Shown here: piece after piece, positions 29,719-30,678 of the stretch
Layout: every line of letters starts with the position of its first letter
Position numbering within the stretch: position 1 is the first letter of the stretch
Notes under the pieces: model-generated
Databases searched by the model: none
What the model was told of the DNA's origin: nothing
The model's input: the letters and a program-made list of their open reading frames with translations, nothing else
Made by a program: the position numbers and the translations under genes
Source: Pelagerythrobacter marensis
GTDB lineage: Bacteria > Pseudomonadota > Alphaproteobacteria > Sphingomonadales > Sphingomonadaceae
Assembly: GCF_036700095.1 (NCBI RefSeq)
Contig: NZ_CP144918.1
Coordinates: forward strand, 931,001 to 995,000
DNA length: 64,000 nt
Direction: 5' to 3'

Positions 29719-29741
29719 CGCGCCGCCGACAACCACCCGAG

Positions 29742-29926
29742 CCCCAGCGCAGGCTGGGGCCTCAGGCCGCTGGCGCTGCGCCCGATAACCCTCCGCGCAC
29801 CCAGCGCAGGCGGGGACCTCAGGCCGCCGACACACCGCCCGATACCTTCCCGAGCCCCAGCGCAGGCTGGGGCCTCAGGCCGCTGGCGTGTCGCCCGATA
29901 GCACGAGGTCCCAGCCTGCGCTGGGA
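29742..29926. repeat. Left group of REP-like palindromes
   Basis: Four copies of an 18-bp palindrome lie here. CCCCAGCGCAGGCTGGGG is exact at 29742-29759 and 29855-29872; a decayed form lies near 29800-29816; an inverted form with T/A ends is at 29909-29926. Between them a spacer reading roughly CCTCAGGCCGCTGGCG then CGCCCGATA repeats. These are extragenic palindromes that could form hairpins in DNA or RNA. Confidence 0.88.
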
Positions 29927-29960
29927 CTCGGAAAGGGGGTCGGGTTATGGCAAAAATGAC

Positions 29961-29989
29961 TTGACAATTGTAACCTATTGGGTTATAGG
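29961..29989 (+). promoter_or_regulatory. Sigma-70-type promoter
   Basis: TTGACA (29961-29966, consensus -35), 17 bases, then TATAGG (29984-29989) as the -10. It lies in a notably AT-rich island within GC-rich sequence and does not face a gene: the nearest rightward annotated start is more than 3.6 kb away. Confidence 0.65.
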
Positions 29990-29995
29990 AGCCCC

Positions 29996-30310
29996 GCCAG
30001 TCCACTCTGGCACACAGCGACGGGGGCGGAGCGTGTACGCGTCACGCAGGCCGCTTCGTCCAGACGGCCGGTGCCTCGGGGGGCTAGTGACCTTTTAGAG
30101 AAAGCCCCCTTTGCCGGTTTGCGAGGAGTTTTCGGGGGACCTGTCCCTTTCGGCCCTGCGGTGGGCCTCAACGCCGCAGAGCCCAGGGATGCCCCCGACG
30201 GATACGGTGCCGGCGAGCCCTGGCCGTATCTCGCCTCGCAGCCCTTAAGGGCCGAGCGAAAGGTTGCCGTAACCCCTTTCGCCGTTCGCAACGATGTTAC
30301 CAAGGCAACC
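29996..30310 (+). ncRNA. Candidate structured non-coding RNA
   Basis: Downstream of the promoter the sequence is packed with perfect stems: GCCAG/CTGGC (29996-30011), GCGTG/CACGC (30031-30047), GGCCG/CGGCC (30049-30069), GGGGGCT/AGCCCCC (30079-30109), CTGCGG/CCGCAG (30156-30179), GATACGG/CCGTATC (30201-30230), the self-paired GCCCTTAAGGGC (30241-30252), and GGTTGCC-GTAAC with GTTAC-GGCAACC (30262-30310). The last competes with GCGAAAGG/CCTTTCGC (30256-30282), so two folds are possible. I find no signatures of RNase P RNA, tmRNA (no TTCGA T-arm), SRP RNA or known riboswitches. Open frames of about 110 codons exist on both strands but look unlike coding sequence. Confidence 0.5.
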
Positions 30311-30353
30311 CTGTGACGCCCAGGTGGCAATCCTGTGATGCCCAGGCGGCACC
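30311..30353. repeat. 22-base tandem repeat
   Basis: CCTGTGACGCCCAGGTGGCA is followed two bases later by CCTGTGATGCCCAGGCGGCA, a two-copy tandem with three substitutions, directly after the last stem of the candidate RNA. Confidence 0.7.
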
Positions 30354-30420
30354 GGCCGATTCCGTCCGCTTGCCTTCATGCCCCGGCGTAAGGTCCGCAC
30401 TCGCCAGCGGATGGTGGGGT

Positions 30421-30478
30421 GTGCCTGCTTGCCTGCTTTCCCGCTTCTCTCTCCCCCTTTCCTCTCCCCCCTCTCCGA
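30421..30478 (+). other. C/T-rich, G-poor tract
   Basis: Nearly all bases from about 30438 to 30476 are C or T on the plus strand. For a rightward transcript from 29997 this is the composition favoured by Rho for loading, so it might end the candidate RNA; no intrinsic terminator was seen. Confidence 0.35.
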
Positions 30479-30479
30479 T

Positions 30480-30607
30480 CCCCAGCGCAGGCTGGGGTCT
30501 CGTGCTATCGGGCATAGCGCCAGCGGCTTGAGGCCCCTGCCTTCGCAGGGGCTCGGGACGGTATCGGGCATAGCGCCAGTGGCCTGAGACCCCAGCCTGC
30601 GCTGGGG
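30480..30607. repeat. Right group of REP-like palindromes
   Basis: Three further units: CCCCAGCGCAGGCTGGGG (30480-30497), a variant with the same stem ends CCCCTGC/GCAGGGG (30534-30551), and the inverse CCCCAGCCTGCGCTGGGG (30590-30607), joined by spacers with TATCGGGCATAGCGCCAG. They are the same family as the units at 29742-29926 and bracket the candidate RNA. Confidence 0.88.
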
Positions 30608-30678
30608 CTCGGGAAGGTATCGGACGACGCGCCGGTGGCCTGCCATTCCGGCTTGCTGTGGGTCGGACTTGCCGAGCG

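Follow-up and report, generated by a model that had tools for sequence, protein, structure and literature searches.

The window analysed here, a stretch of 64,000 nucleotides from Pelagerythrobacter marensis, contains a gap of nearly a kilobase between two convergent genes, and the question is what this gap encodes. It runs from the stop codon of a gene for a GDYXXLXY protein (29718) to that of ftsK (30679). The original prediction placed a candidate structured RNA gene in it, behind a TTGACA-17-TATAGG promoter in a gene-free kilobase. Both the gap and the promoter could be confirmed: no gene was found between the two stops, none of the four open frames in this interval matches Pfam even at E 1, and on the forward strand the -35 hexamer TTGACA (29961–29966) is followed by a spacer of 17 bases (29967–29983) and the -10 element TATAGG (29984–29989). 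A simple promoter scan reports no promoter at this position because TATAGG lacks the final T that the scan requires; an intrinsic terminator was not found at the element either. The spacer contains a palindrome, TAACC-TATTG-GGTTA (29971–29985, forward strand), which overlaps the -10 element and is a putative operator. Its pattern, TAACCNNTTNGGTTA, occurs once in the 64-kb window and in none of 100 shuffled versions.

The gene is not a solitary one, although the prediction of an RNA gene is itself supported. The window segment 29961–30425 is one of 11 copies of a stretch of about 500 bases, 94–100% identical, that are dispersed over the 2.9 Mb P. marensis genome (here called type A). In an alignment of the 11 copies the promoter and core are nearly invariant, and all 11 have inverted REP-like palindromes on both sides; at the window copy these lie at 29905–29931 and, inverted relative to the first, at 30475–30501, in both cases outside the conserved unit. 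Arrays of such short palindromes (of the CCCAGCGCAGGCTGGG type) occupy 29726–29931 and 30475–30617 of the window, in inverted orientation around the element, and palindromes of this type are also present elsewhere in the genome. The promoter palindrome TAACC-N5-GGTTA has 15 sites in the genome (about one would be expected by chance at this base composition, as a rough estimate; a reversed-pattern control gave none), 14 of which are at family members: the 11 type A copies and three other long non-coding stretches begun by the same promoter (L068, L074 and L076). The remaining site (L075, around 1501; G000 C1:2352976) immediately precedes a gene for a GTA-type 3TM holin (PF11351). Two further members, at C1:87268 and C1:1305085, were found by homology and have the palindrome variant GAACC, which brings the family in P. 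marensis to 16 members, 11 of type A and five divergent ones. All 16 share one layout, with a TTGACA promoter containing an AACC-N5-GGTT spacer palindrome, a few hundred bases of sequence, and a terminal hairpin.

The claim that the sequence specifies a structured RNA is upheld by its fold and by compensatory changes in relatives. The predicted non-coding RNA of type A extends over 29997–30425 on the forward strand, as judged from the 11 genome copies, the cross-species alignment, the consensus structure and the folding energy; its 5' end is inferred from the promoter, and the conserved unit ends about 14 bases past the terminal hairpin. The previously assumed 3' end at 30310 is thus about 100 bases short, since the conserved unit reaches about 30425, with the terminal hairpin at 30394–30411. 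Segment 29997–30420 has a minimum free energy of -209 kcal/mol, compared to a mean of -188 (sd 6.8) for shuffled sequences (z -3.1; 0 of 100 shuffles). The type A consensus, derived from 17 sequences of five genomes, has 100 base pairs, nine of which show changes on both sides; most pairs are invariant, with a covariation term of only -4 kcal/mol.

Two long-range helices characterize the consensus structure. Helix P1 pairs AGCGACGG (30016–30023) with CCGTCCGCT (30362–30370), and helix P4, identified also as inverted repeat I9, pairs CGGCCGGTGCC (30065–30075) with GGCACCGGCCG (30348–30358); all four strands, read on the forward strand, are invariant in type A, and a helix at the position equivalent to P1 covaries in divergent members. 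Within the interior, the forward-strand hairpin GCGAAAGG...CCTTTCGC (30256–30282; strands 30256–30263 and 30275–30282) is kept across type A, with 9–10 of the 10 pairs of the extended helix around it retained in 17 of 17 sequences, partly by changes on both sides. It had been proposed that this hairpin is one of two mutually exclusive pairings. Both indeed exist in the window, but the alternative, GGTTGCC (30262–30268) with GGCAACC (30304–30310), has all seven pairs in 13 type A rows and only five of seven in the four rows from P. marinus, so that the sequences neither support nor exclude a putative switch between the GCGAAAGG/CCTTTCGC and GGTTGCC/GGCAACC pairings. The 3' end is formed by a module (30385–30411, forward strand) that defines the family across genera, consisting of GGCG (30385–30388) and the terminal hairpin TCCGC...GCGGA (30394–30411). 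A candidate terminal H-type pseudoknot, GGCG:CGCC, has nearly invariant strands, and the changes in GGCG that do occur, in L122, L155 and L294, are uncompensated. Loops with anti-Shine-Dalgarno character (ACCTCA) were found in some members and were rejected as a family feature, as they are not universal; no conserved interior 6-mer was counted above the highest value in shuffles.

Type A and the divergent members have few sequence islands in common, while their layout is the same. From 5' to 3', the order in the family is the palindromic promoter, a long-range helix of GGCCGG type, and the 3' module GGCG...TCCGS-N8-SCGGA; the interior between the P4 strands aligns poorly across subfamilies. 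A search of the GTDB collection with the 3' module pattern identified at least 120 stretches. Most of the 80 matches listed originate from Novosphingobium, Altererythrobacter, Pelagerythrobacter, Qipengyuania, Allopontixanthobacter and sphingomonad or alphaproteobacterial bins, and five of them from named unrelated bacteria. Among the 122 module matches listed (including two in a contig of a viral collection), 72 have a promoter palindrome 370–631 bases before the hairpin end, 39 lie so near a sequence end that no decision can be made, and in the other 11 there would be space for a palindrome but none is present. The latter comprise two degenerate versions (L199 and L216), a sphingomonad copy (L235) and eight matches taken as chance, namely those of the five unrelated bacteria, one from an unplaced proteobacterial bin (L217), L270 and L282. 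The terminal stem is TCCGG/CCGGA in 49 of the 72 and TCCGC/GCGGA in 23, and CCCGC/GCGGG occurs in genomes found later by the model described below. The viral-collection contig (L286; IMGVR_UViG_2855891247_000001), the only one there that matches the pattern, is a palindromic sequence of 6.2 kb with the same clpB-like frame twice and inverted hairpin modules at its ends, and is probably a chimeric assembly rather than a virus. In several draft genomes, contigs terminate within copies of the RNA element.

In total, 100 distinct full-length sequences could be gathered, forming 35 clusters at 80% identity. TTGACA is present in 97 of these 100, and palindrome positions C4, C5, G11 and G12 are invariant in all 100, both values being affected by the preselection of these members with at most one mismatch. 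The commonest -10 hexamers are TATATG (24), TATACG (15) and TATAGG (12).

The search for relatives across the Sphingomonadales, which had been suggested as a check, was extended with a model of the 3' module (R1), built from 27 sequences and run on 397 genomes of the bacterial family; at most 11 candidates per genome were scored, and the hit counts are therefore lower bounds. At E ≤ 0.001 at least 31 of the 397 genomes match, seven of them at E 2.8e-4 or worse; at E ≤ 3.1e-7 there are good matches in 24 genomes, belonging to 8 of 96 genera. Eighteen of the places found were read for a promoter. In four genomes that were negative with the exact pattern, all eight places read (G264 three, G307 two, G396 two and G462 one, out of 30 model hits in these genomes) carry TTGACA and AACC-N5-GGTT, with the palindrome 360–455 bases before the hit end; for a new P. 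marensis copy this distance is 603. Weak model hits elsewhere carry the promoter palindrome in 0 of 7 cases. This comparison is independent of the promoter-based preselection. Single diverged 3' modules with no recognisable promoter, L295 (G002 C29) and L296 (G003 C4), are probably decayed copies. The exact pattern itself is found in 18 of the 397 family genomes, and among 385 genomes of the class only in P. marensis (G000) and one other genome of the same family; an order-wide search with the promoter pattern gave single matches in G090 and G094, from other families, which were taken as chance. Absence of the RNA outside this bacterial family is a provisional conclusion, because some genomes of the family are recognised by the model and not by the exact pattern.

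Compensatory changes in homologues, for which the original prediction had called, are clearly seen in the long-range helices of the divergent members. For this analysis 27 of the 35 clusters were used, eight having been left out beforehand as A-like or hard to align; separate alignments of the 5' and the 3' part were made with no use of the structure, and the paired columns were fixed from one member. For P1 (GGATC/GATCC), 120 of 135 cells are paired, with 16 double changes, and for P4 (GCGCGGCCGGTGCG/CGCACCGGCCGCGC) 353 of 378, with 30 double changes. Neither the observed pairing nor the number of double changes was reached for either helix in any of 1000 column shuffles, which ignore relatedness, and pairings slid by 1–3 bases collapse. 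Variants of P1 include GGATC, GGACC, GAACC, AGGTC and ATATC, each with a matching partner. Read on the promoter strand, G-U cells exceed A-C cells by 46 to 17, or by 38 to 6 when the outermost pair of each helix is left out, as would be expected of an RNA with the sequence of this strand. The covariation of P1 and P4 thus appears strong from these alignments, though it is not a phylogenetic test.

Judged by the genes on either side, several genomic sites are common to different species and genera. All five Pelagerythrobacter genomes that contain type A have a copy beside a CheY-like gene; the window site is occupied in both P. marensis and P. marinus, with both flanks matching, and further type A sites are common to two or three species. 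Some genes, namely gmk, relA/spoT, DUF885 and cydB, adjoin the element in more than one genome and genus, with the RNA sometimes in opposite orientation. The identities were calculated from 24 of 31 type A hits, the truncated remainder being left out. Copies from the same genome are on average 95.3% identical (77 pairs, 87–99.8%), whereas, when corresponding sites are compared between species, 13 of the 14 pairs share 72–83% and the remaining one (P. aerophilus and P. rhizovicinus) shares 94.8%. In a tree of the same set, copies group by species or close species pair. Since copies match their genome-mates better than their same-site counterparts in other species, the sequences argue that type A undergoes concerted evolution, as rRNA genes do. 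One copy in G006 (L022; C1:184404–184780) has the left flank of one P. marensis type A site and the right flank of another, a sign of rearrangement or ectopic recombination between copies. In the same genome the window site is diverged and has no element, with REP-like palindromes kept on both sides, which would fit either the loss of a copy or a site that never had one.

The palindromic promoter also occurs outside the RNA family. Among six such promoters in other genomes of the bacterial family, only two start a member (L079 and L080). In L081 and L085, both from genome G126, TTGACA and the palindrome (1501) precede ilvC and a gene for a class II DAHP synthase, with similar leaders, so that in the genus of G126 the palindrome appears to serve protein genes of amino-acid synthesis; at L083 and L084 no family member could be recognised.

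What kind of element this is can be judged by weighing several explanations together. Open frames of about 112–115 codons on either strand of the window copy (29978–30316, forward; 29983–30330, reverse) would allow a protein-coding gene, but copies within P. marensis differ by indels of one or two bases that break both frames, neither frame has a Pfam match at E 1, and the paired structure is conserved across species. A coding gene is therefore rejected, with hardly any probability left to it, and the view that neither strand looks coding is supported. A divergent member of a known RNA class, missed by the Rfam models, would fit the large size and the compact conserved 3' module, which we take to resemble those of other large RNAs. 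The Rfam scans speak against it: at gathering scores there were no matches in the whole 64-kb window, at relaxed E-values six matches inside or beside the element had E 0.31 or worse and were all below gathering scores, and at the other family loci scanned nothing matched inside the element. We consider a missed known class very improbable, in agreement with the initial impression that no known class matches. At one locus (L275, 1–137) the promoter of the family member is preceded, at a distance of about six bases, by the end of a partial RNase P RNA (Rfam E 9.5e-19). The window contains neither tRNA nor tmRNA, and no paper on this RNA was found among the top-ranked matches of a search of open-licence literature. 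The RNA thus appears, from its sequence, to represent a new family, which stands out among large structured RNAs by its copy number and its uniform palindromic promoter.

The inverted REP-like palindromes around all 11 type A copies in P. marensis, together with the G006 copy that joins the flanks of two sites, would also suit a REP/BIME-like repeat that acts at the DNA level in recombination or chromosome organisation and is transcribed incidentally. Such a repeat would hardly explain why partners hundreds of bases apart covary, why G-U is far commoner than A-C on the promoter strand, or why the promoter hexamers are conserved, and in other species the unit is not always accompanied by REPs; this explanation is improbable, if slightly less so than a missed known class. 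More weight belongs to a non-autonomous mobile element, in which the promoter and RNA would be copied as a unit to new intergenic sites by an enzyme acting in trans, and the structure kept because mobility needs it. The patchy distribution, the high copy number in some genomes and the many different sites point in this direction, as do the opposite orientations beside the DUF885 gene (L247 versus L076, L080 and L214) and relative to the gene downstream of the CheY-like site (L179 versus L040, L041, L045 and L054), and the orthologous window site in G006 that has no element. On the other hand, constant terminal inverted repeats are lacking, REPs are absent from five of the six P. marinus left flanks read, and in other genera and several copy sets the flanks diverge right at the promoter. 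The unit boundaries are functional, from promoter to terminal hairpin, several sites are common to species and even genera, and no longer version was found upstream of the 11 module matches with no nearby palindrome. RAYT-driven REP mobility was rejected, as the search, limited to Y1 transposase (PF01797), gave no match in the P. marensis genome (five of 14 control genomes match), and so was a phage or plasmid origin, the window copy as query having no match in phage or plasmid collections. Mobility as the main explanation is, in our opinion, unlikely but deserves consideration.

We favour, as probable from the sequence comparisons, that the window element is one gene of a multicopy family of trans-acting structured RNAs under a shared regulator. 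Each gene would be a compact unit with a vegetative-type promoter, a palindrome between -35 and -10, and an RNA of about 340–600 bases, closed by the long-range helices P1 and P4 and ending in the conserved hairpin module. A single DNA-binding regulator may bind the palindromes and switch all copies together; it would most likely be a repressor, as suggested by the position of the palindrome between -35 and -10. Acting in trans, the product would be a folded RNA or an RNP, with a dosage raised by copy number, and gene conversion may keep the copies alike, as in rRNA genes. Several findings count against this multicopy RNA family as the best explanation. The patchiness, with good model matches in 24 of 397 genomes, would be uncommon in a core regulatory RNA and is a typical trait of mobile DNA; the same promoter before ilvC, DAHP synthase and holin-like genes argues against a dedicated operator; a few sphingomonad copies have no clear promoter (L235, the single diverged hits in G002 and G003, and the degenerate L199 and L216); and the missing intrinsic terminator and small type A covariation term also weigh against it. 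A bolder and rather doubtful proposal is that of a genetic element made of RNA only, with promoter, operator and a large folded RNA and no protein. Such an element would have reached sixteen or more positions in a genome, gene conversion keeping its copies uniform, and its RNA, which might be a ribozyme, an RNP scaffold or a self-assembling particle, would appear in a single burst once one common regulator dissociates from the palindromes.

Large structured RNAs are rare in bacteria, and several of the known ones are ribozymes or scaffolds. As many as 16 homogenised copies, a uniform palindromic promoter and the occurrence in named and cultured strains make the family a tractable system: the palindrome can serve as bait for the regulator, species in which only one copy was found, such as Allopontixanthobacter sediminis, offer a clean knock-out, and one copy (L022) marks a rearrangement.

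Known systems resemble the family in part. Small RNAs of the LhrC type are far shorter than about 340–600 bases. LhrC of Listeria is an example of multicopy bacterial sRNAs (PMC4132741) and, as here, several near-identical and presumably co-regulated RNA genes are found in one genome; unlike LhrC, the present RNAs have about 340–600 bases and long-range helices, and nearly all of their promoters contain a palindrome. GOLLD, ROOL and OLE, described as large ornate bacterial RNAs that form particles as homo-oligomers (PMC12286853), are likewise large and intricate RNAs with a poorly known role; the present family differs in having no Rfam match and many homogenised copies per chromosome. In common with rRNA operons, for which concerted evolution has been reported (PMC8022953, PMC6053082), the copies are dispersed at partly conserved sites, are more alike within a genome than between species and show a sign of recombination with each other, but this RNA family is patchy even within one bacterial family and is not known to have a ribosomal role. 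Finally, the element is dispersed like the intergenic repeats of REP/BIME and MITE type (PMC12306157), and is here physically flanked by REP-like palindromes; in contrast to these repeats, it has its own promoter and a covarying RNA, and no constant terminal inverted repeats.
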